From assembly GCA_021234155.1 (NCBI GenBank), contig JAJEKV010000038.1, forward strand, positions 3,460,810 to 3,524,809: DNA of 64,000 nucleotides, read 5' to 3'. Position 1 is the stretch's first letter. Each line of letters starts with the position of its first letter. Positions 1 to 56,751 of the stretch are shown one piece after another. The position numbers were made by a program, and so were the translations under genes. Source of the DNA: Isoetes taiwanensis (taxonomy: Eukaryota > Streptophyta > Lycopodiopsida > Isoetales > Isoetaceae). Below the pieces are notes generated by a model. That model searched no databases, was not told where the DNA came from, and worked only from the letters and a program-made list of their open reading frames with translations.

Positions 1-328
1 TCATGATAGAAAGTCTATGTCTTAAGGTCTGATAGATTTGAAGGTTATAAAATTGTGCAAGACCTTATTAAATTTATTTCTAATTTGGAGCACCATGCAT
101 TAAAGAATATGCAAACATACCCTCAGAGGCACTGGATGACAACCCTCCTGTGCAGCACCTTGTTACGAATAGAAAATCATAATTTTTGTACCCTAAAAAA
201 GGGGTATTGCCTAGATGTAGCTTCAAATAGATTTCAGATTCAGAAGAGGTAATTTTTGGGAACAGGAAATTTTGGGGCAAAAGCTTGGCGAGTGGCAGCA
301 GTGGCGTCGTGAACTGGGTGTGCGCGAA
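1..328. other. Left flank of the MULE, no gene seen
   Basis: No coding region is convincing here; the two short overlapping reading frames at 55-280 look like chance. Bases 132-171 (a stretch around ACAACCCTCC and GCACCTTGTTA) resemble bases 51945-51985, so both may be pieces of one dispersed repeat. The sequence just before 329 (TGCGCGAAG) and just after 33164 (TGACTGAAG) match at six of nine positions. That could be a decayed 9-bp target duplication of the MULE, but it is weak evidence. Confidence 0.4.
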
Positions 329-484
329 GAAAATTTCCTGGGCTCAGGATACATTTACCCTCGATTCGGTGATCCCGAGATAAAGATACCGATCTTCCCG
401 GATCCGGGCAGCGTCGGCGGTCCGTTGGGGAGACCCGTTGACGTCTGACACACGCCACGTCGGCCCGGTCCATCCCCGCCGTTC

Positions 485-489
485 AAACC
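485..489. repeat. 5-bp target duplication of LTR retrotransposon, left copy
   Basis: AAACC lies just before the 5' LTR and again at 25075-25079 just after the 3' LTR. The opposite MULE end is an independent empty-site control. Read on minus, it runs from the CCATCCCC region through CAAACC straight into GTGCCATCG, with no LTR element between. Confidence 0.75.
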
Positions 490-2079
490 TGTGACGTTCC
501 ACATATTTATACGCCTATTTAAGTATAAATACATGACACGTCACTATGAATAATTAATGGCACATTAATTATTCATAAGCTAAGGTTAGCTATGTTAATA
601 ATTAAATTATAAAGGTGGAAACCTAACCCAAAACCCTAATTTGAATTTAGGGCTTATCCTAATATTAAAAAGGGCTAAAATACCAAATTAGTTAATTAGT
701 GACATGCCACCTGGCCCAAATCGATTGGGCAAGGCAGGGTTTTCCATTTTGGACATCCAAGTTAGGGCTTTTGTGCCCCAATTCGAATTAGGAGCAATTG
801 GAGATGGGGGAGGAGGAAGCGGCCGACCGGGCACCCTTCAAAGAAATCGAGATGGAGCCATCCCAAGCCCGATTCGACCCGGTTGTCTCCAGTAGCTTAG
901 GTGTGTTATCGTAGGGTAAGCGCCTGGGCACTTGTTGTGTGTATTTCTTACGTTTCTCCGTGTTCTCTATGCTTTTGACTGTAGGAACTAACCCTTGATT
1001 GCAAAGGTGAGTTCTCCTTATCTCTGATTACGTACTTGCTCTTAAATGATGGATTGATAGTTCTTTGCATAGTATTACTCTTGAAATGGGGAATTAAGGG
1101 GGGTAGAGACCTCCTCGAGCCATGTTTATTAGTATGCTCCTAGGTAGATCCCTCAGCATTTCCCATTATATCGCGACTTTGTGCACAAAGAGACCACCGA
1201 GTCATGGATGCTATGGAATTGCTTAGCACCGAAGGGACGCAGTGGTGAAGTGGGGGTGGGGTCTTGCACGAACATACAAGGCTCTGGGACTCCTACAGCT
1301 AGGCCTCGATGGCCAATCATGTAGGGGCGGGTATGGGTCCCGACACTCCACGGAGTGCGGAGGTGTGACCCGGGGGGCACCACATTACTTTGTGTAGATT
1401 TAGGGGAGTAAGCTCTGGTGCGGATCGCGGGGTTCCCTGATGCGGCACGTATTCTCTAGCTCACCCATGGAACCCTTGCGATCACGGAAGGGGATGCTTC
1501 CCGACACCGCCTCATCCGACGGGGTCTTCATGAGAGCACAGGTAGGCTCGAAGGGTGATACCTTTGAGTCTGCGTCTCGGGAAGGCTATAGTGATGCCAT
1601 AGCATGATTCGACTCATCTGCAAAGTGTGCACAAGAGGGGCGGATGGAGTGGACAACCCTAGCCCGAAGTTCTATGCCCATAGCGCCATGCCAAGATTGA
1701 TACCTGTGATCTCTTTGAGACCTAGCCGTCGATGATCCTCAATTAGAGTCTGAACCAGGGTAGAACACGGGGTTTGGGGTGTTTTGCTTAGGATTAGATG
1801 CATATTCTTTGCCCTTAGTACTTGGATGGATGTGCCACCCTTCGTGGTGGTTATTTATATATGATTTATGTTGTGTGTGCGAACATGTATTCACGCCTTA
1901 ACTTAGGAGTCCCATTGAAGGCGTGGGCGAATGACACCTCCGTGTCCTTCACCCAGGGCATCTCTCCGATGGTCCGGAGTTAGGCGGAGAGGGCCACGCT
2001 CATGGTGAGCTGGTTGCCATGGGAGGAAGTCCACAGATGTATACGTCCCGGGCCCGTATATATATTAGGGGAGCATCCA
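490..2079 (+). repeat. 5' LTR
   Basis: Begins TGTGACGTTCC and ends GCATCCA, giving the usual TG...CA edges. It aligns along its length with 23508-25074. A TATA-like stretch (TTTAAGTATAAATA) lies near 516-530. Short reading frames inside it, such as 704-895, recur in the other LTR and look like chance. The two LTRs differ by many substitutions and by one- to five-base indels, especially in G/C-rich parts. Confidence 0.83.
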
Positions 2080-2082
2080 TGA

Positions 2083-2094
2083 TGGTATCGAGCC
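2083..2094 (+). other. Primer-binding site (Met-tRNA type)
   Basis: TGGTATCGAGCC starts three bases after the LTR edge. The usual plant initiator-Met-tRNA complement is TGGTATCAGAGC, so it is close but imperfect. It sets the element's orientation as plus. Confidence 0.7.
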
Positions 2095-3288
2095 ATGATT
2101 TTGGTTGGCCAGAATCATTGCTTGACAAAATCTTTAACCCAGTTAGTTTGGTAGTTGAGTGGGAGTTTAAGCTAGTTGGGTGCCTAACTTTTTGATTTAG
2201 TTTTGTGCTAGGTGGATGTAATAAATTGTGAGTTTGAAGTTAGGGGCGATTTTGGAGGGAAAAAGTTGTGACCTGAGGACCCAAGTTTAGATGGGCCATA
2301 ACTTTTTGTAGGTAGCTCAGATGAAGGCGAAAATGGTTCCAATGGATCGGGCACCTTCAAATACCCTAGGGGGGCACGTTTTCTGAGGTCGAAATGGCAA
2401 CACCAAGGCGAAAAGTCCAAAGGGGCGCTGCTGTCGGATAGGGTGTTTGTTTCAAAAAGTTATTGGCGATATAGCTTCAACGCTTCATATATACGGTCCG
2501 CCGTGTAAAAATACGCGTCCGTTTTAAAAAAAAAAAAGTTTTTCCTTTCTACCCGCGTTTTGTACCCATGACCAACCGCCTCCAACCCAACAATCTTTCC
2601 ATTTTGCCAACTCTCTTGATATGAAATATATATGTTTTATCCCTTTGTTATACATATATAATATTCTGTTTTATCCAGTTAGCAGTTTTTTTTTAAGCAA
2701 AAGGTACATCATGGGATTGAACCACTGACCTTCTGCACCAAAGCCAACACCTTTACCAATGAGCCAACTTCTTTCTTGAAGGGATTTAACCCTTTTCCTA
2801 ATATTTATAGTGCATCTATTCCATATTTAAATTAGAGGCGTGCCTTTGGTAAACCCACGTTGTGGAGGCAACAACTCCATCAGAGCAAGCTCTTTTGCCA
2901 TAGCCGCCGGAATAAGCGATCTTGCCATAGCCCGCGGAGTCGACCTCTCTACGCCATAGTAGGCCTCCCATTAGGCCGGTCATGCACTATCGTTTTCTTC
3001 CTGCGCGCCTTCCAACACTTACGTCGACATGGCCATCTTCCGATGTTAATCTAAAGTAATGTCGCTGAAACGGACCAGCGATTAGAGGAAGGAGACGAAT
3101 TCTTCATTTCCCCGCCAAGACGGATGCTCGTAGTGGAACTTCCCACCGTGAGACGGCATGACCAATATCTTATCCATGAACACTTAGAATGCAACCTTGT
3201 CCTTTTATTCTACCCCATTCACTCACGATGAGGAAATGCCTCCTCTCCCATATTCAATGAATAACCCATCTCTCTACTATTCAAGAGT
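2095..3288. other. Internal region of LTR retrotransposon, 5' part
   Basis: No recognisable coding sequence. It contains a tRNA-derived SINE at about 2683-2779. The copia insertion begins at 3294. Confidence 0.5.
2683..2779 (-). mobile_element. tRNA-derived SINE
   Basis: On minus it reads as a polymerase III promoter: an A-box-like TGGCTCATTGGTAAAGG (2750-2766), then a B-box core GGTTCAATCCC (2713-2723), then GATGTACCTTTTGC and an A-rich tail at about 2687-2697. A related copy lies at about 55896-55975. It is not a working tRNA gene, because the acceptor stem does not pair. Confidence 0.6.
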
Positions 3289-3293
3289 AGCTC

Positions 3294-3922
3294 CTCGAAG
3301 AAAATCTATAGAGGTAGTCACGCCAAGTGCCAACCACAGTTAGAATCAACCGTTTTTTCAATATTGAGACAACAAGAGCAATTCTCTAGCACATTTTAAA
3401 ACCAATAGCATTTGTTTAAATAGTTAAACCATTAACCATTGCCCAATGCACATATTCAAACACTATTAGATAAACTCCGAGAGCCCAAGCACTTAATATT
3501 CGATTAGTGTCAACCCTCTCCAGATTCGTCAATCCGAATACACAAACATCTATTTTTTCCCACCCATTTATTCACAGCTCCGTGGGTTTTAGATGCGTGT
3601 AGCGGCTTTCGGCAAGAAGCGAAGAACCGCGACATTCTATTTTACGCTTGCGGCTTGCAATATCCTTACGCATTAACATTTTCTTTGGGATCTTTCAAAC
3701 AATATCCCACATGCTTTTACAATAATTCAGCCCCAAACCATTGAATCAATTTGCATTAGGTATATTGAGTTTTCTAACTCAATACACTTGATACCTTCAC
3801 CTACATGAAGTTTGAACTTCAATTGAATCAATCAACCTCCCTATAGTCATCTGAAGCAGTCAATACTGTGATTATCTGGACCTGCCTTCAATATGCACTA
3901 TAACATGACAATACTATTAACA
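3294..3922 (-). repeat. copia 3' LTR
   Basis: Matches 8294-9164 once the 235-bp insertion there is removed. On minus it begins TGTTAATAGTATTG after the polypurine tract at about 3923-3933 and ends near AGATTTTCTTC. The last bases (TCGAAG against TGAAG) are slightly altered. Confidence 0.85.
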
Positions 3923-3933
3923 TTCCCCCTTCA

Positions 3934-6900
3934 TGTTATGTAATAATGCATATTGAATTAATCTTCTCGGTTCACAAATCTTCCTTCGAGCAAGACCTTT
4001 TGTTAAAATGTCTCGCTAAGTTGTACTACTAAGATTAACATAGATCAACTTTGCTAGTCCCTTCTCGTGACTTCCCTAATAAAATGTAATTCTAATCCAA
4101 TATGCTTGGACCTCTCGCATTTAAAACTTGGATCCTTTGACATTGCTATACAACTTGTCTTTGTCACAATATATCCGAGTAGCCTCGGTTGTGGAAATCC
4201 AAATTCAATAAGCAGTCTTCTTTCCCAAATGAGTTCTCTCACACAAGAAAGGCGTGAAAGATATTACGCTTCAGCACTAGATAAAGCAATTGAGCTTTGC
4301 TTCTTGCATTTCCATGATATTGGTCCTCCACCTAATAACATTAAATATCGGATGTGGATCTTCTAGTGTCTATGCAACCTCCCCTACGCATCACAATGAT
4401 GAGCTTAAAATCATATTCTCTGTGCAATAAGTTACCCCTACATCCATAGTCCCTTTGAGATATCGAGAACACGTTTTTTGCTTTCAATGATCCCTTCCCG
4501 GATCATTGTTATATCTACTCAACATATTTCCAATATGAGATATGTCTGGCCTTGTGCAATTTGCAACATAGGATAAACACCCTACTAATGATCTGTAAGG
4601 AGTCTTAGCCATTTCAGATCTTTCAGTGTCATCTTTAGGACTCATGTGCTCAAATAATTTATGACCTGATGCTGCGCAGTGTGTTTTTCGTGTATTGCCT
4701 TTGCTCCAACTTAAATTTTTTAAGCATGCTTTCAATTTGCCCCCTTTGAGTGAGAGTAATTATTTTATTTTCTCGATCCCTTTTGACCTCAACACCCAAG
4801 AACTTCTGTAATTCTCCAAGATCGACATTTTGAATCTCACATTTAAGATATCTTTGCACTGCTCTAGACATGTTTTACCCTTTGCTATCATGATGTTGTC
4901 ATCAACATAAAGTGCAATAATGCACCATTCATTCCCAGCCACAAATTTATAGATATTTCCATCATTATTAAATTTGTTGAATCCCTGCTCAATCAAATAG
5001 GAATCCATGCATTTATACCACTCTCGAGGTGATTGCTTGAGTCCATATACTTCTCTTTTTAATTTCCAGACTTTACCTTCCCCTTCCTCAAAACCAGGGG
5101 GTTGTTTCATGAATATCTCTTCTTCAAGCTTAGCATTTAGAAAGGCAGTGTTAACATCCATGTGATGTATTTCAAGGTCACAAGCATTGGCTATTGACAA
5201 CAACATTCGGATGCTATTCATTTTGACAAGAGGCGAGAAAGTCTCCTCATAATCAAGGCCTTTTTTCTGTGAAAAACCTTGTGCTACTAGCCATGGCCTT
5301 ATACTTTGGGGTTTTCCCATCAGGGCCAGTTTTCAGCTTGAATAGCCACTTGTTACCTACTATGTTTTGTCCTTCAGGTGCATCTACCAACTCAAAGGTT
5401 TCTGTTCTTCTGAAAGAGGCCAATTCATCATTCATGGCTTTTATCCATTCAGCTTTATCATGTTTAGTTAATGCTTCATAATAAGTCTTTGGAACATTAG
5501 TATCTAGATGCATTAGGATTTCAAACAATTCATGAATCTCACCTTCATTCTCCTGAAGTCTCTTGCTCCTTCCAAATTGGTCTCGTCCATGTTGGCTTGT
5601 ATCTATTGCTAATCCTTCCTGCAACCTTTGAACTTCGTTAGCCTCTTTTTCCTTGTGCAGCGGCGGTTGCTCGCGATTATCTTGCACTTTGGTATGATAT
5701 TATTCTCCCTCATCAACATCAAGTTTGCGGCATTCTCTAATTGATTAGCAACATCCGTCTCATGTGAAGTTGACCCTAACTTCATATGCATCGATTCTAT
5801 ATCGAATCGAATATGTTAGTTGCTCATTTTCTTGAGTAGCTTTGACTTCATCACTTCCTTCTTCTTCTTTTTATTTCGATGATTTGCACTCTCATCAACA
5901 TCCACGTGTATTCACCTTTGGTATTAATTTATAAAATTGGTCTTCATCAAAGATAACATCTCGACTTATTACCACTTTCCTTTTGTGTGGATCATACAAT
6001 CTATAGGCCTTTGATCTGTGCATCATAGCCTACCATATACGTTATCAATGATTTGTCATCTAGTTTCTTTTGAGCTCATCGGTATGTGTACAAATGCCAA
6101 GCATCCGGTATGCCTTTAATTTTTTCATATTGAGGTACTTTCCCAGACCATAACATTTCGAATTGTACCTTGCACCGCCAATGAAGGTAGCATGTTTTGT
6201 ACATGAACAAAGCTAACTCGACGGCTTCATCCCAAAGAAAATTTGGCAATCCCGAGTATTTTAGCATACTTCCCAATCGCATTCAAGATTGTCCTGCTCT
6301 TCCTTTCTCGCTATCCCATTCTCATGAGGTGAGTACCGCAAGTAAGTTGTCTTTTAATTCCTTTCTTCTTGCAATTATTGTTTGAATTCATCGGATATGA
6401 ACTCCCCTCTCTATCCGACCTCAAACACTTAATTTTTTCTTCCTGTTTGAGTTTCAACTTCATTAACAAACCGCTTGAATGTTTCAAATGTCCGCATCCT
6501 TAGTCTTTAAGCAATAGACAAATGTCTTCCTGCTAAAATCATCAATAAGAGTCATGAAGTATCTTTTGCCACTTAGACTTGTCACATTTAATGGTCCACA
6601 TAGATCATTGTGAATCAGGATCTAGCATCCTTTGGCCCTTTTTAAGAGATTTTTTAAAAGGTAGTCTCTTGATGCTTCCCCTAATATACATCCTGCACAC
6701 TTTAGCTCTTCAGCACTTTTGCTAGCATTAATCATTCCTTTTTTCATCAGGAGTTCAATAGTTCTGGAGTTCACATGACATAATCTATGATGCCAATTTT
6801 TCAAGGTTGGGAGACCAACATAATTAATGTTGGGCAGTATATGATCATTGCACAAGCCAAACAAATTGCCAATTCTTTTTCCCAAGAACATCATTTTATT

Positions 6901-8280
6901 ATTGAGAAAAACCTTACAATGTAACTTCTCAAATAGGACCTTGTAGCCTAGGTCCACTAACCCAGAGACAAATCGAGATTCCTTACTAACCTAGGTACAC
7001 AAAGAACATTTTCTAATTGTAACTTCTTCCCCTCTAAATCAAACAATTCCAAAACACCAACGTCTTCTATTTCTTGAAGATCCCCATTCCCTAGTTGAAC
7101 ATGTCCACCTTTTCTTCCTCCTTGCAACTTTGAGAATATTGGAGTTTGTCACATCGTTTTTTTCAGCTCCAGAATCTATGATAATTACATCATGATCAAT
7201 GTTATCTTTAACAAGAGAAAACATTTTAGGTATGCTTACCTCAGCATCTTCATCGAGCTCCTCTTCCTCAGTTTGTTTGTCTTCAGTAAGATTAACTGTG
7301 GGATTCCTTTTTTGTGTTCCTCTCCCCGTTCTCATACCCTCTCTTGTAATTAGGATTCTTATCCTTTCTCGTACTTTTTAGGACTTGGACAAACTTTGTC
7401 GCCATATGACCTTTACCTTCACAATTATAGCATATTATTTTTTTCTCAGTTCTTGGGCAGTCAGCTTTAAGATGGCCATAGCTATTGCAATTATAGCATG
7501 GTCCTACCTTCTTTTTTTCCTTATTTCTTTTGTATCTTCCAGTGTACAATACTTCAGAGTTATCCTCATCATCATCATGCACTTTACTCTGCTCAAACTC
7601 AGTTCGTACTATTTTAATGGCATGCTCCTTGGACTTTGCAATATTCCTTTATCGTGGTTGCAAGATGGAAATTATGAGCTACTTGCGCAGATATAGCCAA
7701 CAACTGATATTCTTCATTGAGGATGACTCCAAAGACCCTCAAGGTCGCAAATAATAGAGTCAAACTTTTCAAAGAACTCATATGTTATCCTTTTTCATGC
7801 AGCTTTAACCTTCTCAACCGCTTCTCCAATACATCAATTTGAGATGAAGTCTTGGCTTCATACTCTTTAATTAAATACATCCACATTTCTCTTGGAGTCA
7901 TACCCCTCCGCCTTCAACAAATTGCAGATCCCACTTTGCAAATCGATGATTGCCCGGGCCTCCATACTTTTATTTTTTCATCTTCACCAATCTCAGTTGC
8001 GGTCTTTGGATGAGTTCAGCGGTCCACTTTCAGCAGGTTTGCCCTTTAAGGTAGACCCTTCACCACTTGAGCTGGAGCTTGTTCCCCTTGATAGAAGTCC
8101 TCGCTCTTACAATCACAAAGAATTACTAGCGGCTTTGGATCAACCAAGTACCATAATTTTTCAAACTCGGCACTTCTCTAATGCTCTTCGCCCAAATTTG
8201 AAAGCCTCCATCTCCTTTGAATACCTCTATGGAATTTAGCAAATTAGCTCCAAAACGAGTAGCCATGCTTCTTCAACCTA
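3934..8280 (-). pseudogene. copia gag-pol remnant
   Basis: Reading on minus from 8.2 kb down. Gag has two CCHC-type zinc knuckles at about 7510-7420; the first is CYNCNSYGHLKADC, and the second has lost its last Cys. The aspartic protease motif DSGA is near 7165. A pre-integrase region with His and CxxC residues lies at 6957-6622. Part of the integrase core is at 6282-6076. Reverse transcriptase spans 5687-4760 with the DVNTAFLNA, YGLKQSPREWY and YVDD motifs. RNase H spans about 4735-4060 with the TRPDI and RSKHI motifs. These pieces lie in different frames with stops between them. In life the polyprotein would package RNA, copy it to cDNA and insert it. Length and order fit a full-length copia element. 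Confidence 0.9.
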
Positions 8281-8293
8281 GCTCTGATACCAA

Positions 8294-9164
8294 TGAAGAA
8301 AATCTATAGAGGTAGTCTACACAAGTGCCAACACCCGGGGGATTCACCTTTATCACATGAGCATATGCCACCTGCGTGCTTAAGGTGAGAAGAAACACCC
8401 TATATCGTGCATAAAAAGTGTTGGAAAAAACACCCTTCCGTGGAGAAAATACACTAGAATGTCGCGAAGAGGGGATTTAAACCCTAGTATCGTCTGAAAA
8501 ACATCGAGAAAAAACCCCCTTCCACACACTCATTAGGTTTATACGGGTCTTCTGTGTGAATCCCCCGGGTGCCAACACAGTTAGAATCAACCGTTTTTTT
8601 CAATATTGAGACAACAAGAGCAATTCTCTAGCACATCTTAAAACCAATAGCGTTTGTTTAAATAGTTAAACCATTAACCATTGCCCAATGCACATATTCA
8701 AACACTATTAGATAAACTGCGAGAGCCCAAGCACTTAATATTCGATCAGTGTCAACCCTCTCCGGGATTAGTCAATCAGAATACAAAACATCTATTTTTC
8801 CCACCCATTTATTCCGCGCTCCGCTCGGTTTAGATGCGTTAAGTAGTGCCTCGGCAAGGCGAAGAACACGACATTCTATTTTCTGCTTGTAGCTTGCAAT
8901 ATCCCACAGGCATTAACATTTTCTTGGGATCTTTCAAACAATATCCCACATGCGTTTTTACAATAATTCAGCCCCGAACCATTGAATCAATTTGCATTAG
9001 GTATATTGCGTTTTTCTAACTCAATACACTTGATACCTTCACCTATATGAAGTTTGAACTTCAATTGAATCAATCAACCTCCCTATAGTCATCTGAAGCA
9101 GTCAATACTGTGATTATCTGCACCTGCCTTCAATATGCACTATAACATGACAATACTATTAACA
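8294..9164 (-). repeat. copia 5' LTR, carrying a small insertion
   Basis: Pair of 3294-3922. It is longer because of the inverted-repeat element at 8335-8569. The primer site follows directly on minus. Confidence 0.88.
8335..8569. mobile_element. 235-bp element with inverted ends and 9-bp target duplication
   Basis: The ends are CCGGGGGATTCAC and GTGAATCCCCCGG, a perfect 13-base inverted pair. TGCCAACAC flanks both sides (8326-8334 and 8570-8578). The other copia LTR has an uninterrupted GTGCCAACCACAG at the matching place and so serves as the empty site. A 9-bp duplication points to a non-autonomous Mutator-like element. No coding sequence is visible. It must be younger than the copia insertion. 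Confidence 0.8.
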
Positions 9165-12836: not shown

Positions 12837-14116
12837 CTCCACCATTTCGCGAATCATACCTCGATTCAAGTAGCAATAGTTATAAAGTGTCGCACTTGCT
12901 ATACCTTCACCACCATTGTCAAAACCTACACTTCTAAAGTGATCTTCCTGGGTACTTATAATCCAGTTTCCACCTTAGTATAGTACCTCCTTAACATGGT
13001 CTATAGTAGATAATCATAAACCACTTCTCCATCAGATATATGGTGCTATATCCAGTCTCCTTCTACGTTGAATGGCAACATATATGCCGCATGCTAAATT
13101 CATCCTCGAAATTATTAGGTCCAGTGTTTCAATCGCATAATAACCATATCAATTTTCTCCAGTATCCATCCAAAATAAGGATACCTTACCACTCCTTATT
13201 CCCATAATTCAGCACTTCTACTTCAAGTAAGAGCCCAGGACCTGCTTAACCACCATTATATAATGGCCTCAAGAAGCACTAGGCATGCTTTCTATGCTTC
13301 CGTCGTACCTGTGCCATGTCAATGTACGAATGTCTAGATATCTAATAAACGTATAGATATAACTAAGGAATTAATATGTGTGCTCATGTGAGGTAAAGCC
13401 CGTTTTAGTATTAGTTCACCTCGAAATTCCGTTGGCCAATTAACCTAAGGAATCATCTATTATTCCAGGGTAAATTTTAACGGCCCCAAATGTTTTTCTA
13501 TTCAAATTAAGATTGGCTAAATCTATGAAAAACAAAAGTTCTCAGATTTTTTTCTTGGCGAAATTTGATAAAATAAAGCCCTTTAGTTATCTTCCCACTT
13601 GGCTAAAATGTAAAATTTATATGACATGAAATTATGATGTTGGCGAATTTTTCTTGGTCCCCAGCTAAAGTGCAACTATTTAACTTCAAACTTTGAGCAC
13701 TGATTAGTACATGAATGCCATTGATTCAATGACAAAGTTGTTCAAAGTACAATTAACAAAGTTGCGTATTAAACGGGAGCAAATCATTGAAACGAGAACA
13801 AAAGGAATATTCCTCAAAGATTCCCTTTTTTTTACAAAAAAGGGGGTAAAACGAGGTTAAAAAAAAAAGATGCATGAAATTCTATTTTGACCCCCCACCC
13901 CCCCCCCAAATGACTAATTTTTTTTTGCAACGAAAGAATTGACTTTTTTAAAGTGTCACTTTTCTTAGCAAATAGAATGTTCTTAAAGTATGTTTTAAGA
14001 GAGAAACTCTAATTTCAGAGGATAAAATATTTAACAAAAAATTGAAGTAAGTATGTAACTGAAACTTTAGTATTCTCAAAATTTGAAGATAGAATCTTCA
14101 TATTCACATGCAAAAT

Positions 14117-17100
14117 TTACAGTCTTTTTCTAAGACTTTTATTGTATGTGATGATGAGAGAGGGATCTAGGGCGCCCTCATATTCATTTATGCCATCGCC
14201 ATCACCTTCACTTCTTTCACTTTGCCACCGAGGAAGTGCTTGAGTTATCTTCCTCATCACTATCAACAAACGGTGAAGCATTGTCACCACCTTCTTCATC
14301 ATCTTCTTCGTAAATTACAAGCTTTTTAAGCAAATTGATAGTCTTCCGGCATGACGCGATTGTCAAATTTCAATTTAAAATCATCATAGCACAATATAGT
14401 CACGCCATTAAGGTTCACCTTTCCCTACAACCCACCTTCTTGGACTTTCTCCCTTTTCCTTGGCTTCTCATTTCTAACTCATATCTACCTTCAAAAGCAT
14501 TTTCTGAGCGTGTTGCAAGCCAATGAATCTTGAGTTTAGTGACTAAGCCTTCCTCCTTGGACTTTGTCAAGCACTTTTGCTATCCGAATCGGTGACCTTT
14601 GTCATCCTCCTCGGGAAGAGCAATTAGCATACCTTTGGTAATTTCTGTGATATTACCTTGAGGCTCATTCCCTGTCTTGGTCCGGGCACATGACTCGGTC
14701 CTCCTCATCTTCTCACTGCGGTGCAAATGTAGCACCGCTTGGACCTGCTTGGTGCTGGGGTTGATGGAAGGTGTTAGGCCATTGAAATGGTTCTTGCAAC
14801 CGCCTTAGAGCTATATTTTGTACAACAATTTTACGTTCGAGAAAGAAATTACTCCACCACATCCGATCTTCTTCTAAGAAGTACTTAAAGCTCGAGGAAA
14901 TTCCATTTTCAATGGCTTTTAAGGATGACTCGGGGTACTTTTCTTCTTTTCTTGGACTCCTTAGGATTTTTGAGAGGAAGTTGCTCAAAGACGTTCTATG
15001 AAGGAAGTGTCCGGAATATATTTAAGGAAGCATAATCCCTCCTCGTGGACTCTAGTCCTTAGTTGTGGTATACTTCTTCCCTGTAAGAAGCTTTGGCCAT
15101 CCTTCAAGTAGAACTTGATATGATGTTGAAAGATGAGATCATTCAACTTGTTCACGCTTGGTTCTCTGCTTGAACGTTGAGAGAAAAATAAACTCTCTCG
15201 AAATCAGCAAAATCTCTTTAAGAAGATCGACCAATCGGAGTAGGAGTGTAAGAATCTTCAATAATTCGAACTAAAGAAGGAAGACGTAGCCTTCTTCCTT
15301 CTAAGGCTACGTAAAAAATCTGGCTTGAACATTTGGTCAATCTGATCATGAGTGTGGCCTACAAGTAAGAAAACCGAGCTTCACTTTTCTAAAGATCCCT
15401 AGCTCCACTAACATGGCACAAGACACAAAGAGTGTTTGATTCTTGTTCTCCCTTGTAGTATTGTCAAGTTGCGAGATAAAGCACCGGTGGTAATTGCTCT
15501 TGCTCGCACAGACCTTGTTAAGAATTGTAATTGTGGAGGTTCGGTCACCATGCAAGTTTGGATACGTCCAAAAATACTTTGCACTTTAGACTTCCTTTGA
15601 AGACCATAGCTCCTACAAGGTGGACCTTAACAAAACATTCCTCCTCGCACATCTTTAGGAATGTTCAAGAAATGTGGTAGAGTTGTTTTTTTTTTGTCCA
15701 TTCCATCAATCACAAATGATATGTATTGCGATGGACGCTCAAGAGCTTTTTTTTTCTATGCTTGGCAAGCTTTCTTCTCTCTCGCTTTGTTGTTCACGAT
15801 GTTCCGCAAGGTTTTGTTGCACAATATCCGTAGAAGAAATCGGGTCAAAGCATTTTCTCTCAAACAAGTGAGAGATTGGAGAACATGAGCTTACTTCTTT
15901 CGACCTCTGTCTTTGCATTAATTCTGCACACCTCGAGCAAACAGACATTCTATGTTTTCTAGGAATTTTCACAAGACCGAATTCACTTTTCCACAGTCTG
16001 GTGAAGTGTGAGTAAGAGATGTCTTTGAAGCCGAAAGTGCAAGTCTCTTTGTAGTCATTAAAAACATCTTTTTGGTGATGTTATCGCTTAAATGATACAT
16101 GTTGCTGTTAGGTAGCTTCTCACATGTTTCTCTAAAATATTTCTCCATCCATGACACAGCAGCAAGGGCATGCATGGTTACAACTCTTCTTGGTCCACAA
16201 TGATCATCGATTGCTGGATTTTTGTCCAGTCTTTTGTGTATTCTAGACATTCTGGTGGACCCTAAACGGTGGACAACCATAAAGCATTTCGCAAACTTTG
16301 ACGGTTAATGTAGTGCAAGAAGGTGTTGCGGTCTGGTCTTACATGATAAGCTAAGTAGGCATTCTAGGGTTCCGCCAATGTCATGGAACCAGAAGTTGTC
16401 TCTAATCGCCAGTAATTTAGCCATGTTAAATCTGTTGATGCAACCCAATGAGCAGCATTTAGTTCTCAAAAGTCTCCTCATTTTGTGTTCATCCATAAGA
16501 TTTCTTCTTCTTACAGAGGAGCAAGCCCTCAAACCAAAATCCACCTTGAATTTCTTTTGAAGATTGGCCGGAGAACATGTAATCTCTTTGTTCCTCGTTG
16601 GTGTCTTCATCTTCCTCGATGAAACTTCTACTCTGGGGTGACTTCCTCTGTCTCCGAGTGGTGTGCTTGTAGAGGAAAACAGACCCACGGAAGTTGTTCC
16701 CCGAATAGGCGGGGTACAGTGTTAAAGGATGGTGATGGCCCATAAGAGGTTGTGGCATCACCGTTCTTGTACCATCTTGAAAAGGAGTTCTTGCAAACAT
16801 CTCCTTTAGAGCCGGACCGGAATTTCAGAATCCATGTGTCACAACCGTTGTTGTGTGAAGAGGAGTGCTTGCTGGAGCGTCGTCCTCATTTGTAGTGAAG
16901 TCCTGGTGAGAGAAATTGTAGTGAATCTCACAGTCTTCTTTACTTTCTGTGTTCCTTGTATGTTTGGATGAAGGGGGCGAAGCAACAAATGGGGGGTAGC
17001 TTGTTCTTGAACACCCGTTGTTGTGGAGCTTCTGTAGGTTGTCCCGGGGATGGAACAAAGGGTGGTGGCAACATGTTCAACCGTGGTGATTCTTTGGAAG

Positions 17101-17332
17101 GAGATGCCAGTGTGCTGTCTACAGGACTTGGTGACGGTTGGAAGGGTGGTGGAAGTCTGTTACGTGCTGGACTCGGTGTGTCTTCGAGAAGCAACAACGA
17201 TGAAGCAGAGGTAGGAGTCGGAGAATGCCGGTCTTCACTAGAAATGACGTTGTTCCCAAGCGTGTCCTCAGAACTAGACGAGCTTGAGACAACAAAAGGT
17301 GGTGGAAGCTTGTTCACGAAGCGGTTCGTCAT
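14117..17332 (-). pseudogene. Transposase-like protein (IDGMD / LDN-TRENKN / GHTHDQID family)
   Basis: The reading begins at ATG 17332 with an N-terminal low-complexity part carrying repeated LPPPF motifs and Ser/Thr/Pro. A Cys-rich segment CCSLGC follows at about 16459-16440, then a helical basic region with CSRCAEL near 15930. Next come three motifs in order: IDGMD (15710-15696), LDNTTRENKN (about 15471-15437) and GHTHDQID (about 15370-15335). The C-terminal tail is acidic and ends near 14.2 kb. Widely spaced Asp and His motifs suggest an RNase H-fold DDE-type catalytic core. I recall this signature from uncharacterised proteins of mosses, lycophytes, corals and oomycetes, catalogued I think as DUF7869, but I could not search. 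Frameshifts break the core, so the copy is probably dead. Introns are likely but not mapped. Confidence 0.6.
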
Positions 17333-18585
17333 CTTAACAACTGCAAAATAGTAAAGAGATTTGAGAAACTTTCTGTAGTGCAGAGCTTTTCTTATTCCCG
17401 AATACACGCCCACGTAGTACAAGTAGAAGTTCCAGTACTAATCAAGTGAAAGTCAAAATAAAAGCTATTCTGGAATACACAAGAGTAGGATAGTAAAGCT
17501 AAACATATTCCGCATCACATAGAAAAAGAGCAAGACGAAAATGATACCTTTAAAAGGAAATTTCTCGCCTTGCCTTTTCAGCCTTCGAGCCTCTCAAATG
17601 CCGCAAAGATTAACTTCGATTATAATATTCGTTTTCGTATTCCGATTCACATAGAGAGAACATGGACAAAGTCAAGAAGAAAGTACAACGCATAATCATT
17701 TGCATGTCTCAAGCTTTTTATTCCCAATACACTTTGGCTTTCCCTCGAAACACTTTGGCTTTTTGCCTATTCTGAATACCGAGAAAGTGTATTCCACTTT
17801 TGTTCGAATACACTTTGGCCTTCACTTTCGACCGAAAGTGTAAATACACTTTGGCCTTCACTCGAAGGCAAAAGTGTATTCCGGAATACACTTTCGTGTT
17901 TTTAGGTTTTAAGAGGTTACTTTTCCATCCGTTTTTTAGTTATTCTAGGCGTTTTTGCTGCATTTAAAGCTTGTTTAGACCAGTTTCTTTGTCAAGATTG
18001 CAGTGCTTTTTTGGCATTTTTGTCCTCTTTTTTCCCTCTTTTTTCCCTTTTTGCAAGACATTTTGTATTCTGGAATAGTTTTTGGCCACTGTTTTCTCTA
18101 ACAAGGTCGTGTTTACAAACAATTTGCACAGACAAGACAATAGCAAGAAACAACAGAAAAGGCCCCTTAAAGTCGTACAAAAACCGCACCCACACAGAAG
18201 GCTTGAGGAGTCAGCTGCGCCTACTATCTACTTAAAACTTCCGGACTCAATGGTTCTTTACAAAGGGGTACTTCGAAAGTACAAAGACCACGACTTTCCT
18301 ACATGTCCGGTTTGAGCCCGGAACCAAAAGGTACGATGATTGGGAATTTGTCTCGCATGGGCACCATCCGGCCCGCCGCTGAGGTAGCCGGGAGTCCGTC
18401 GTGGAGGGAGACTGCCTTTTCAGACATCCCAAGGCTTTATTCATGTTGATGAATCCTACCTTAGAGTTGTGAAAAGTAAATCCACATCCTCTTTATAAGT
18501 ATGTTTCTCACTACTTCGAACAAGAGGTCGCCTCTCGCCATCATTAACTACGCTCGGGCACAACGAGCGAGGACTTCCCCTACAA
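17333..18585. promoter_or_regulatory. Divergent intergenic region with TATTC/GAATA palindromes
   Basis: This 1.25-kb gap separates the starts of the two divergent genes. It holds many half and whole sites of the element's palindrome: near 17467-17485, 17770-17776, 17795-17818, 17873-17892 (GTGTATTCCGGAATACAC) and 18066-18078. Between 17740 and 17900 the words ACACTTTGGC and GAAAGTGTA also alternate. The region would be expected to hold both promoters. No TATA box is clear enough to name. Confidence 0.5.
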
Positions 18586-21500
18586 ATGAAGTCAAACAAG
18601 GGGAAGAGGATAACCCGTGAGAGCCCGAAAGGTGCATCATCACCATCCGGGAGTCCATCGTGAGTCCCAAGAAAGGCCACCGCCACCACCACCAAAGCGG
18701 CAAAGGCAAACCGCTGTCGCTAAAGAGCCTAAAAAAAGCAAACGGGCTTTGATTGCAAATGTAAGATGCCCCCGAGGCACATAAGAAGAAGAAGGGGAAA
18801 GGCAAAGCACCTGGTGTTGCTATCAAAGAAAAAAAAGTTGATAAAACATCTGAGAAAATGGAGGAGATTAACCTGCACAAGTTTGTGCAAGGTGTCATTT
18901 ATTTGTCACCACTTGTATGAAGCTTCCAATCAAAAAATGAAGCCGGGTGAAAGGCCACTTCAGGTTCGCAAAAATCTACGCCGATCACTTGAGGAACCCG
19001 AAGACGTAATAAGGAGCAATCCAAATGCTCATGGGCCCCAATAGTTGTCCTTGTTGACAGGGAGCAGTGCAAAACCCCCAAGGACTATGACAGAGAAAAC
19101 GCAGACACCTACACTCACTACGTCTTGGGAGGCAATCACAGCTTCAAGGCAAGAAGGCAACTTTATAAAGAGAAGAAGAACCCGAGGTACCTCTCCCTCC
19201 CTCCTGCCCGCTTTCATCGCGGGTCTTACCGATGAAGAAGCCAAAAATCGCTGCCAACACCCACAATGCCGACAACGAATATAAACTAAAGATGAGCTTC
19301 GGCCGACAAGATCCGTTCATGCACAGGAGTACGTAATTTTCAAGGAAAAGTACGGTGAGGACCTGAAGAAGCCCGGCGTTTTTGGAGCTTAAGGAGGCGC
19401 GGTGCCATTGAATGTCGCCGAAATATGACGAGGCCAATAAAAGGCGCCCTCTCATTGGCCACTTATAACTGGTTCCAATTAGCTTTAGAGATGGCAAGGT
19501 AAGCACAAAACGTATTCCAGAATAACAAATCAACTATCTCACGTGAAATCTTTTTGAACAGATTTGGGAACTCCAGGACGAGATATTTTCAATGTTCGAA
19601 CGAGGGGAGTTAAAGAGCAAGGGCAAGGAGACAGCCAAGAAAAAATCATCTGACGTGCCCAAAAAAGAAATGACCATTACCGCCCCGGGCGAAATGCAGG
19701 GGCTTCTCCGACACGTAGATTCGAGCGGCTTCTCCAAAAAAAGTTGTTGATAAGGAGTTTAGCCTAGAAGAAATGTCAAAGGAATTGCACAAGTTTACTC
19801 TTTAGACGTTAGAGTCCCAAAAACATCGGGGTAGATAGTGTATTCCAGAATACACATACCTTTCTTCACATGGGCACTGTGTATTCCGGAATACACAATG
19901 CTTTTCTAGAGACAAGCAATGTGTATTCCGGAATACACATTGCCCATGTAAAGGAAGGCATGTGTATTCTGGAATACACATGTCCTCTTCTAAAAAAGTA
20001 TTGTGTATTCCGAATACACATTGCTTCCTTCGAGAGAAGCAATGTGTATTCGAATACACAATGCATTTTGTTTCGAGATGTATTCCTTCGGAGAAGCATC
20101 AATACCAATGCATTTTGTTTAGGTAGCATCACCAATTAACCAGTTTGTATTCCGAATACATTTAGCTTGACTTTTATTTGTTTTTCTTCTACTTTGCCTT
20201 GTTTTCTTACTTTTTAACTCATTGTTTCCTTTAACGCCTTGCAGCCAAAAAGAACGTCATAACATGTCAAACATGTTTGATGGAGCAGCTAAACGTAGAG
20301 ACATGGGAAAGGTGCAAGGAACTCTACCCAATAGCCACTTCTGACGAGCGATTGTGCAATATGCACCAAATTTTGAGGGCTGGGTAAGTACTCTCAACAT
20401 TCCTCGCCTTTGCACACCACGATCTCCTTACAGTTGTTGTTATGTTTTTCCTCGTAGCAAAAAGAAAACAAAGACCTTCCCGAGGGCTTTATGCATTTGG
20501 TTAGAACAAAGACGGGAAGAGAGGTCGTTAGTCGAAAGAAGAATCGCTGAGCCGAACCATCCGACTACTTAGAGATTTTGCATGTTTGATCAAAACAATT
20601 TATATTCAATCATTCATGGTGATTGCACTAACCTTGTCGGAACGGTTAAGCCACGTGGACTTCACTTTGGTTATTCTTTGATCTTCCCTACGGGTTTAAG
20701 CTTAAAGACAGCAGATATAATTTTACCAGCCCTTCAAATTTTCAGAGTTTAATGCTTTTATTGATGGAATCAAGCAGATCACAACGGCTAAACATTGGCG
20801 TTTAGTTACTTTCCATTCGAGCATGCAGTCTGGCTTGGTAGAATCAGCTTTCAAAAACCACTTTGGTTCTCCAGTTCAGGCAGGATATGAAAACCTTGTC
20901 TGGTAAGTCTTATTCCGTAATCTGCTTACTTTTCTCTTTGATTACGTAGTGTATTCCGGAATAGTATTTCCTGTTTCTGGTTTTCGAAGTGTTTTCTTGT
21001 TTTTGCTAACATCACTTTAAATGTTTCACTAGGTACAAAACGAACATCAACTACCATGGTGGAGGACCAAGGTTGCTTAGCAAGGTAGAGTACCTTCATG
21101 TAGCTTATTGGAGTTTTGATGGGAAGAGGACCATGGAACACTTCAACAACTGCTGCTTTGTCAAAACTTTTCAAACGTCCTTGAGTTTCCAGCAGTCTTA
21201 CGTAAATTGCGGGACCTTAACCGCACAAAGCAAAATGATTGTGAATCACTACCAAAAACCACAAAAGCTCATCAACCATCTCCTGGACATGTTCTCGCGT
21301 CCAGGAGATTGGGTGCTTGATGCTTTCTCTGGTTCTGGTACTACTATCGCATGTGCACTTAAGAAGGGCCGCAACTGTGTAGCCGTGGATATTGATAAGG
21401 ATGCTGTTAATTTTGTGAAGATGAGACTGGCTGCCTTACCTACTTTACCAGATGAACATCAAGAGCTAGGGGCCAAGTCTTCATCTGATTATGCTAAACT

Positions 21501-21708
21501 AACGTCCTCAGAGATACAGCCTCCATTCTCCAGCTCACTAGACGATGAGGCAACCTTTGCAGAGCTTAAAGAAGTAGCTTTAGCTACCATTCCAGAGGAC
21601 AAGGAGGATACAAAACTTAAGTCTCCAGCAAAGGAGCAGACGGCACAGAAGGACGAGACGGCAGAGAGCAGCAAAAAAAATGATGAGGACTATGATGTAG
21701 ATCTTTGA
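18586..21708 (+). CDS. ParB-like domain fused to N4/N6 amino DNA methyltransferase
   Basis: A multi-exon gene with a tentative start at ATG 18586. The early part is Lys/Arg-rich (18.6-18.85 kb). A ParB/sulfiredoxin-like domain follows at 18930-19200, with a basic VRKNLRRSLEEP stretch and the motif YVLGGNHSFKARRQL. Introns look to be 19501-19560, about 19800-20243, 20384-20457 and 20903-21033, with GT...AG edges. The methyltransferase domain has GDCTNLV, then a motif-IV-like FTSPS (about 20722-20736), and then the AdoMet-binding motif DAFSGSGTT with VAVDID in the last exon (21034-21708). This order (IV before I) is that of beta-class amino methyltransferases. The tail is acidic. ParB-methyltransferase fusions are common in bacteria and phages. 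The product would transfer methyl to cytosine N4 or adenine N6. Motif IV lacks the second Pro and aromatic residue, and several frames shift, so activity is doubtful. Confidence 0.72.
19838..20160. repeat. Regularly spaced palindrome array inside a methyltransferase intron
   Basis: The palindrome GTGTATTCCGGAATACAC or a close variant starts at 19838, 19879, 19921, 19962, 20003 and 20044, so the steps are 41, 42, 41, 41 and 41. A seventh partial copy lies at 20146-20160. The ~23-base spacers differ but several begin or end with TGC or GCA and pair weakly with each other. The array lies in the intron that ends at the CTTGCAG before 20244. Confidence 0.9.
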
Positions 21709-22017
21709 CTACTGCATATTAAAATTATCATTATTTATTACAATGAATCTTCCATATTGATGTACGAAAATTTATTAAAAACATATTACTTTTTTTTCCT
21801 CTCTATTCTGGTGCTTGTTTTTTTTCATGCTTTCAGTCTCTTCAAGTCTCTGCCTAAATTTTGCTATTTGTATGATTTCTGTTTCATAAGTACAAAGTTA
21901 TCGCCTAATAATGGCCCAAAATTACACGAAAAAAAATGCGAACCTCTAGAAATTCTCAACAACTTTCAAAAAAGGCTTATTTTAGAAACATGGTGTTTTT
22001 TAAAAGGGAATCTTTGA

Positions 22018-22041
22018 AACGGGAGTGATGCAACACTCCCG
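22018..22041. other. Strong hairpin near the transposon's right end
   Basis: ACGGGAGTG and CACTCCCGT pair around a short loop. The same TTAAACGGGAGCAAAT wording occurs inverted at about 13764-13780 near the left end, so this is subterminal inverted sequence of the transposon. Confidence 0.55.
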
Positions 22042-22567
22042 TTTAATTTGCAATCGTGTTAATTCATAAGGAACAAACAATATCGTTTGAAGGAATATGC
22101 ATGTTTAAATTGGGGTCAAATGTATCCAAATGGTGAATTTGGTGATGAAGCACTTTAGGGTCAACAATTGCAAGAAGAGATCACTATTATTTAAAGCTTA
22201 AAATGCGAATCATATAACATTCTTCGTAGCATTTAACCTAAACAACATATAGATACAAATTCAAAATATGATTGAGGTAGCTAATGGCAATTCCTAAATG
22301 AAAGAGGTCCCTGAATAGAATTGGCATGGCTATTTGAATTGATCAGGGTTCTCCTAATCAACTTTAGAGAAGGCGATTTAGTACACCATGCAGCAAACAA
22401 TCCCGGCTAAACTCTAAGCGTTCAGAATTTACCCCCTTTTGCAGTGGCTAAATTATAGTTTTTCTAAAAAATTTCCCTTTATAAACTTTAGCCATGAAAT
22501 TTGACAAAAGGTCTAAACAATCGCCATTTGGCGAATTTTAGCCACTCTTTATTACCCTGCATTATTC

Positions 22568-55986: not shown

Positions 55987-56751
55987 CAGGGTAAATTTTA
56001 ACGGCCCTAAATGTTTTTCTATTCAAATTAAGGTTGGCTAAACCTATGAAAAACAAAAGTTCTTAGATTTTTTTCTTGGCGAAATTTGATAAAATAAAGC
56101 CCTTTAGTTATCTTCCCACTTGGCTAAAATGTAAAATTTATATGACATGAAATTTTGATGATGGCGAATTTTTCTTGTCCCCAGCTACGATGCAACTATT
56201 TAACTTCAAACTTTGAGCACTGATTAGTACATGAATGACATTGATTCAATATGCTTCTTTTACAAAATGATAACAAAGTTGTTCAAAGTACAATTTATAA
56301 GGAACAAACAATATCGTTTGAAGGAACATGCATGTTTAAGTTGGGGTCAAATCCATCCAAATGGTGAATTTGGTGGTGAAGCCCTTTAGGGTCAACAATT
56401 GCACATTATATAATATTCTTCATCGCATTTAACCTAAACAACTTATAGATACAAATTCAAAATATGGTTGAGGTAGCTAATGGCAATTCCTAAATGAAAG
56501 AGGTCCCTGAATAGAATTGGCATGGCTATTTGAATTGACTTGGGTTCCCCTAATCAACTTTAGAGAAGGCGATTTAGTACACCATCAGAAAACAATCGGC
56601 TAAACTCTAAGCTTTAAAATTTACCCCCTTTTGGAGTGGCTAAATTATATTTTTTCTAAAAGAATTGCCTTTATAAATTTTAGCCATGAAATTTGACTAA
56701 AGGTCTAAAACATCGCCATTTGGCGAATTTTAGCCAATCTTTATTACACCG
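55987..56751. mobile_element. 765-bp non-autonomous relative of the methyltransferase transposon
   Basis: It starts CAGGGTAAATTTTAACGGCC like 13466 and ends in wording matching 22060-22559. A perfect 8-bp duplication GTGTGATG flanks it (55979-55986 and 56752-56759). It is the two ends of the 9.1-kb element joined, with both genes missing. It has about 20 bases near the left junction (around TATGCTTCTTTTACAAAATG) that the 9.1-kb copy lacks. It therefore descends from a sister element rather than from this copy. Confidence 0.88.

Follow-up and report, generated by a model that had tools for sequence, protein, structure and literature searches.

The question raised by this locus is whether a plant DNA transposon carries, beside a gene for a transposase-like protein, a DNA methyltransferase gene of its own. 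In a 64-kb stretch of the quillwort Isoetes taiwanensis (contig JAJEKV010000038.1; G000:C1043:3460810-3524809 in our searches; hereafter the window, with positions counted from its first base), two divergent genes are enclosed by matching inverted tips, CAGGGTAA and TTACCCTG, at 13466 and 22559, and a first-pass annotation had read 13466-22559 as one such transposon. Searches of the genome (1,658,258,908 bases in 1,110 contigs) showed that the two genes are indeed paired genome-wide at a fixed spacing. The transposon that holds them is an inner element of 8,306 bp (13755..22060) with ends of its own, AACAAAGTTGCG; two nested elements had been read as one.

What is new in this analysis is that these elements carry arrays of a palindrome, GTAT-N6-ATAC, which differ by lineage and are located in the intergenic region and the methyltransferase introns. 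Our reading, to which we give a probability of about 0.5, is that this is an autonomous-type transposon family whose fusion protein, a ParB-like part joined to an amino-methyltransferase, most likely docks on the family's own palindromes and methylates there.

Two nested elements at one locus

The tips described in the first-pass annotation are present, as is the near-perfect 8-bp target-site duplication (TSD) beside them, the bordering octamers TATTATTC and CATTATTC agreeing at 7 of 8 positions. The derivative that it had noted elsewhere in the window lies at 55987..56751 on the plus strand; it is 765 bp long and has the perfect duplication claimed for it, GTGTGATG, but only its left tip is as described, the right one reading TTACACCG. 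We paired 40 scored left ends of this kind (of 499 candidates) with 40 scored right ends (of 572) across the genome and obtained 15 one-element pairs. The window copy alone measures 9,094 bp; all 14 others are 784-805 bp in size, and the methyltransferase is in none of them. Ten 10-kb loci cut around methyltransferase matches share homology with the window over element positions ~284-8604 at most (290-8595 in the best preserved), and these gene-bearing relatives have different ends and flanks. At the limits of this homology stand terminal inverted repeats (TIRs), AACAAAGTTGCGTATTAAACGGGAG and CTCCCGTTTAATTTGCAATCGTGTT, that differ from the CAGGGTAA tips. The left one (13755..13779, plus strand) is identical in the relatives L001 and L003, the right one occupies 22036..22060 on the minus strand, and AATT borders the element on either side (13751..13754 and 22061..22064). 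The 765-bp copy contains the uninterrupted target, CAAAGTACAATTTATAAGG, with the empty site of the inner element at 56274.

Because 14 copies measure 784-805 bp, because distinct TIRs and a distinct TSD stand at the limits of the gene homology and because an empty site exists, we conclude that the 8,306-bp element is nested in a short non-autonomous element of ~0.79 kb (13466..22559). A single CAGGGTAA transposon with both genes, as suggested by their enclosure between the tips and the near-perfect duplication, is ruled out by the short copies, by the other ends and flanks of the gene-bearing relatives and by the empty site, and we regard it as refuted. The outer element, which we take to be hAT-like from its 8-bp TSD and its CAGGG tip, belongs to a non-autonomous family of ~0.8 kb, for which the 499 and 572 candidate ends are rough counts.

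The inner element belongs to a family with consistent ends. The 25-base end pattern of its right TIR has 661 matches in the genome (339 + 322), and the reversed control has none. Wherever both ends of an element could be placed and stood in the normal relation to each other, a perfect 4-bp TSD flanked it (11 of 11): AATT in the window, GCTA (L001), CCAC (L003), TTCT (L005), GTGA (L008) and CATT (L009), ATAC and ATTA in the deletion derivatives L038 and L035, and CTAC, AGTT and ACTT in the sister-lineage loci L047, L048 and L049, where the right ends were located by a search for GTT followed by the left flank. One right-end find in the L047/L048 pair coincides with the point where their mutual alignment stops. 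This count omits L002, L004, L007, L010, L031-L034, L036, L037 and L050, in which one end or both were unlocated, cut off or not sought. Also excluded is L006 (G000:C907:51140980-51150979), in which the left and right ends are inverted and a transposase match lies 8.9 kb from the methyltransferase on the same strand. Its flanks, AACA and TGTT, are reverse-complementary, the outcome expected when an inversion runs through a single element; L006 is probably such a case.

By their AACAA.. TIRs and fixed 4-bp TSD, these elements, 8.1-9.6 kb in complete copies, are cut-and-paste DNA transposons of the TIR order. The 4-bp duplication departs from the 8 bp of hAT elements and from the 8 bp of KDZ elements (Zisupton), and no TET/JBP family was among the Pfam matches of the element pieces tested. 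It agrees with the Sola superfamily, in which Sola1 has 4-bp TSDs. At 22017-22044, a perfect 11-bp hairpin, AAACGGGAGTG / CACTCCCGTTT, extends into the right TIR at its inner end; a similar but imperfect structure is present at the right ends of L047 and L048. The flanks of L003 and L008 hold open frames that, by eye, resemble pieces of retrotransposon reverse transcriptase and RNase H.

The gene pair and its conservation

The two genes are divergent, as the first-pass annotation had it. The minus-strand gene (14105..17332, limits approximate) is frame-broken in the window and bears the motifs IDGMD (within 15630-15755), LDNTTRENKN (15349-15585) and GHTHDQID (15261-15380); in the copy L009, a 541-amino-acid open frame matches Pfam DUF7869 (PF25273) with 118.1 bits against a cut-off of 26. 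Because of these motifs and its position in the element, the DUF7869 protein is most likely a DDD/E transposase. A sequence search of the PDB with this putative transposase gave no match up to an expectation value (E) of 1, DUF7869 searches in 14 control genomes gave none, and no paper in the open-licence literature searched names DUF7869, which is weak as evidence of absence. The N-terminus of the protein (16943-17330, minus strand) repeats an LPPPF-x-x-SPSP-like motif several times; in the sister copy L047, the repeat at this place is PPPMQ-x-(T/S)P.

The plus-strand gene (18079..21708, 5′ limit approximate) has introns and is frame-broken in the window except for exon 5 (21034..21708), an open frame that covers the S-adenosylmethionine (SAM)-binding part and matches PF01555 (N6_N4_Mtase) with E 5.8e-16. 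The methyltransferase pieces of relatives match PF01555 with E 3.8e-17 and 3.8e-18, and the intron before exon 5 begins with GT in 7 of 7 relatives. Exon 4 (20459..20904, frame broken in the window, limits approximate) encodes motif IV as DLPYGFK. This motif reads ADLPYGF or ADIPYGF in all four aligned methyltransferases, and its D-x-P-Y precedes the SAM motif; judged by sequence, the enzyme is a beta-class amino DNA methyltransferase. A profile search of solved structures matched 10, with CcrM best (E 8.2e-11), followed by MboIIA and RsrI, and with DpnA and others lower. CcrM, MboIIA and DpnA are annotated as adenine-specific, and RsrI is adenine-specific as well. Because these enzymes are the best solved relatives, N6-adenine is favoured, short of proof, over N4-cytosine as the predicted target.

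No close donor of the methyltransferase emerged: all 619 phage relatives were below 60% identity (24-27% for the 15 listed), and close-donor scans of prokaryote and viral contigs gave 127 and 75 pattern matches, none of them confirmed. Bacterial contamination is excluded by the introns, the transposon context and the megabase contigs. In some copies, the ParB-like exon of L003 and L005 and exon 4 of L005 are spread over two or three reading frames or hold one stop. Because the assembly was built from Oxford Nanopore R9.4.1 reads with Illumina polishing, according to the part of its report available to us (PMC8566536), some of the broken frames in L003 and L005 may be assembly errors rather than decay.

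The methyltransferase query yielded 3,415 candidates and the transposase query 9,150, of which the best 150 each were scored, so that the following counts are lower bounds. Matching the two best-150 lists against each other at distances of up to 30 kb gave 43 transposase-methyltransferase pairs where 0.8 would be expected. The transposase lies upstream on the opposite strand in 40 of these 43, at a spacing of 4.5-5.8 kb in 29. Among the eight top transposase matches without a listed partner, seven have the fusion gene or, in L045, its ParB-like part at the expected place; in the eighth cut (L043), transposase sequence fills the first 4.9 kb, and the expected place was not reached. Of 16 methyltransferase matches in contigs C1-C907, 13 are followed downstream by the right-end pattern at a distance of 327-343 bp, and both genes fall within the 10-kb cut in seven of the first ten loci. 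The family is thus large, with at least hundreds of copies genome-wide. That the methyltransferase might be an ordinary single host gene is rejected for this genome by the best 150 of 3,415 candidates and by its pairing with transposon ends. The central proposal of the first-pass annotation, a plant DNA transposon that pairs a transposase-like protein with its own methyltransferase, is sustained for the inner element, and the genome as a whole supports it better than a single locus could.

For exon 5, we compared 31 copies, all stop-free by choice (20 stop-free matches, ten loci and the window). The median ratio of nonsynonymous to synonymous substitution rates (dN/dS) was 0.085 over 403 unsaturated pairs of 465, the 62 saturated pairs being left out, with 0.038 for the catalytic part (349 pairs) and 0.168 for the tail (403 pairs). 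Above dS 0.3, the medians with rising dS were 0.12, 0.12, 0.083 and 0.043. The transposase gave 0.04-0.12 in 12 pairs among L001, L002, L003, L005, L008 and L009 (dS 0.46-1.06) and a median of 0.24 over all 36 pairs of nine copies, decayed ones included. Purifying selection therefore acts on active lineages, and single copies decay under relaxed constraint. The best explanation is that the fusion gene is a core part of the element, kept functional by selection.

Palindrome arrays and their possible reader

In the window, the palindromes TATTCYRGAATA occupy the interval between the genes (17393..18077; sites at 17393, 17466, 17877 and 18066) and the methyltransferase introns (19513..20963; sites at 19513, 19841, 19882, 19924, 19965 and 20952), and all 10 core palindromes of the 64 kb lie inside the element. 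The six complete lineage-1 elements, to which we assign the window copy, hold 10, 17, 13, 15, 18 and 18 sites of the core TATTCCGGAATA at up to one mismatch. The exact 18-mer GTGTATTCCGGAATACAC has 2,585 matches in the genome and its reversed control none. Neighbouring sites are 41-42 bp apart in 43 of the 78 distances below 130 bp (eight elements, up to two mismatches), and isolated, non-tandem intron palindromes are kept as well. In nine complete elements, none of 133 palindromes falls in a protein-matching segment, although such segments make up 52% of the sequence; these sites are not independent, so that any p-value is descriptive only, the protein queries omit small exons and gene ends, and the mismatch limits vary by lineage.

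Eight palindrome loci had no listed gene match nearby, and all eight hold parts of the family. Four of them encode the proteins; the other four matched neither protein but have element ends, L035 and L038 at both sides and with perfect TSDs, so that deletion derivatives retain the arrays.

Of 259 sites of TATTCNNGAATA (window element, L001-L010 and L031-L046), 106 have CG at the centre, 62 have CA and 53 have TG, and CA or TG accounts for 115 of the 153 non-CG centres. Because such an excess is the decay expected from 5-methylcytosine (5mC), it suggests that the host places 5mC on the central CpG of the lineage-1 palindrome. The observed/expected ratio of CpG showed no consistent trend between elements and flanks.

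Sister loci were reached through a genome search with DUF7869, in which the best 150 of 9,908 candidates were scored. L047 and L048 (lineage 2) retain both genes in divergent orientation; identities are 46-52% for the ParB-like part and 42-66% for the methyltransferase. In positions corresponding to those of lineage 1, L047 and L048 carry GTATGAATTCATAC, five exact sites each, and L049 (lineage 3) carries GTATAAATTTATAC, 20 exact sites. The main centres of GTAT-N6-ATAC are thus TCCGGA, GAATTC and AAATTT in lineages 1, 2 and 3. At up to two mismatches, the lineage-1 palindrome is in none of L047-L050, and no lineage-2 or lineage-3 site is in L001, L008 or L009, the three lineage-1 loci tested. 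Exact genome matches number 30 (12 + 18) for GTGTATGAATTCATAC and 7,218 for GGTATAAATTTATACC, with none for the controls. The lineage-3 palindrome GGTATAAATTTATACC, whose 7,218 matches are exact pattern matches counted genome-wide irrespective of their placement in such elements, is far commoner than that of lineage 1 (2,585), yet of the two lineage-3 loci examined, one had a decayed fusion gene and in the other no such gene was seen.

We propose that the fusion protein would work in trans, on members of its own family. The phased GTAT-N6-ATAC palindromes of the intergenic region and of the fusion gene's introns would be the docking sites of its DNA-binding part, and its catalytic domain would deposit N6-methyladenine (6mA) there or, less likely, N4-methylcytosine (4mC). 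The effect might be that family members stay expressed, or that transposition is timed, against silencing by host 5mC, and separate lineages would address separate palindromes. More tentatively, and with a confidence clearly short of even, we suggest that each lineage-specific ParB-methyltransferase reads its own palindrome (GTAT-TCCGGA-ATAC, GTAT-GAATTC-ATAC or GTAT-AAATTT-ATAC) and places 6mA or 4mC on the copies of its lineage and on their non-autonomous derivatives, as an epigenetic code with addresses of its own, the central hexamer evolving as the specificity of a restriction-modification system does.

Other readers of the palindromes are conceivable, and the chief rival to self-marking is that the DUF7869 transposase or a host factor could bind them, the latter as promoter or enhancer elements, with the methyltransferase acting elsewhere (genome-wide or on transposition intermediates). 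The transposase gene has palindromes beside its start, the sites persist in deletion derivatives without a match to either protein, as would be expected for any trans-acting site, and both the transposase and the fusion gene diverge between lineages, so that either could track the change of centre. We nevertheless consider this rival rather unlikely, as the sites are neither terminal nor subterminal in full-length copies and many of them lie in methyltransferase introns.

An improbable alternative, in our view, is that the methyltransferase is a captured passenger without a role and that the arrays are junk tandem duplications. The 41-42-bp spacing does fit duplication of a unit, several copies are broken, that of the window among them, and constraint is weak in close pairs (medians near 0.33), as expected after insertion. 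Against this stand the exon 5 dN/dS medians, which are 0.04-0.12 once dS exceeds 0.3, the presence of the fusion gene in the deeply diverged sister lineage as well, the retention of isolated intron palindromes and the lack of cross-lineage sites (lineage 2/3 in L001, L008 and L009; lineage 1 in L047-L050).

Several observations weigh against the self-marking reading in addition to the chief rival. First, the fusion described in the first-pass annotation is well matched in its methyltransferase half and its introns, and weakly so in its ParB-like half. The ParB-like stretch of L001 matched TIGR03764 with E 1.1e-4 and 21.9 bits, far under the cut-off of 143.75, the piece from L008 matched no family, and there was no Pfam ParB match up to E 1. 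A tblastn search of this part against plasmids had a ParB family protein as its best match at a weak E of 0.1, and a PDB sequence search with the ParB-like exon gave nine matches (best E 0.12), none of them to ParB proteins. Second, the pairing has gaps: L045 yielded the ParB-like part only, 3 of the 16 methyltransferase matches have no exact right end nearby, the 10-kb cuts of L006, L007 and L010 contain the fusion gene, in whole or in part, but lack a transposase match, and 15 of 50 listed lineage-1 palindromes have no listed transposase, methyltransferase or right-end match within 9 kb. Third, the exon 5 set was restricted by choice to stop-free copies, and at dS of 0.3 or less its dN/dS medians were 0.335 (26 pairs) and 0.323 (32 pairs), with a range of 0.10-1.25; for the transposase, three close pairs among L001-L003 gave 0.21-0.49 and pairs involving L033 or L034 gave 0.22-0.70. 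Fourth, the fusion gene is decayed in L049 and not found within 10 kb in L050. L047 and L048 each hold one exact lineage-3 palindrome and intermediates, so that lineages 2 and 3 cannot be told apart sharply by their centres, and tandem duplication could homogenise arrays without selection.

Relation to known systems

Because ParB-methyltransferase genes of transposons have already been published from brown, green and red algae (PMC12477816), the gene combination itself is of a known kind, and the quillwort element is a variant of it. The part of that report available to us describes Sola1-1_Ec32 of Ectocarpus as a DNA transposon that encodes a ParB-like and N4C/N6A methyltransferase protein opposite its transposase, and its authors suggest that proteins of this type bind the element that encodes them and modify it (PMC12477816). 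Encoded opposite the transposase inside the element, the quillwort fusion has the arrangement of a ParB-methyltransferase accessory protein. It is therefore a serious possibility, which we place only somewhat below even, that a Sola1-type transposon was inherited or transferred from algae and that the plant novelty is one of host range only: the 4-bp TSDs and the position of the ParB-methyltransferase are as in Sola1-1_Ec32 (PMC12477816), and Sola2 is described with 4-bp TSDs too (PMC3627910). In contrast, the algal element is 21.5 kb long, against 8.1-9.6 kb for complete quillwort copies, and the two are likened by description; palindrome arrays are not mentioned for the algal element in the part of the report available to us (PMC12477816). 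Sola1-1_Ec32 is moreover described as one family of a brown alga, whereas the quillwort element, ~8-9.6 kb in size, has at least hundreds of copies in a vascular plant. Beyond what that source describes, the quillwort element adds a DUF7869 transposase (set beside Sola by description), measured selection and the palindrome arrays. The titles and abstracts listed in the searches of open-licence literature contained no land-plant element of this kind, an absence of little weight, and no search was made on palindrome arrays.

Other multicopy eukaryotic transposons with a DNA methyltransferase (DNMT) are the retrotransposons of Symbiodinium and Klebsormidium (PMC5890265). As far as the portion of that report available to us goes, these are LINE/DIRS-type elements with C5-cytosine DNMTs, unlike the amino-methyltransferase and the DNA transposon of the quillwort, and Dam-like adenine methylases occur in other DIRS elements (PMC5890265). 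KDZ and other fungal TET/JBP DNA transposons likewise place a DNA-modification enzyme beside a transposase; as described in the part of the source available to us, theirs is an oxidase and not a methylase, with 8-bp TSDs in Zisupton and other transposase groups (PMC12730594). CcrM, MboIIA, RsrI and DpnA resemble the quillwort enzyme as amino-methyltransferases by profile match, and differ from it as bacterial enzymes outside such transposons.

The role of 6mA or 4mC in land plants is unsettled, and the current view is that the eukaryotic AMT1 6mA pathway was lost in plants. Because a bacterial-type methyltransferase under selection and discrete candidate target sites occur in one family, this role becomes directly testable at known coordinates. 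If each lineage does read and mark its own palindrome, plants would have a sequence-specific, self-directed amino-methylation system. Tools for programming the epigenome would find a natural resource in related proteins whose palindromes differ.

The closest parallel for the arrays is VANC of the Arabidopsis VANDAL elements, described in the part of the report available to us as a transposon-encoded anti-silencing protein that binds motif arrays and causes loss of 5mC (PMC5735166). There, too, the arrays are family-specific and mainly non-coding, lie in introns and upstream regions and differ between lineages (PMC5735166). The candidate reader in the quillwort differs in having a bacterial-type amino-methyltransferase, and its sites differ in being palindromic. 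The quillwort arrays thus seem to add a second example of the VANC principle, in which a transposon's accessory protein and its target motif may change together by lineage.

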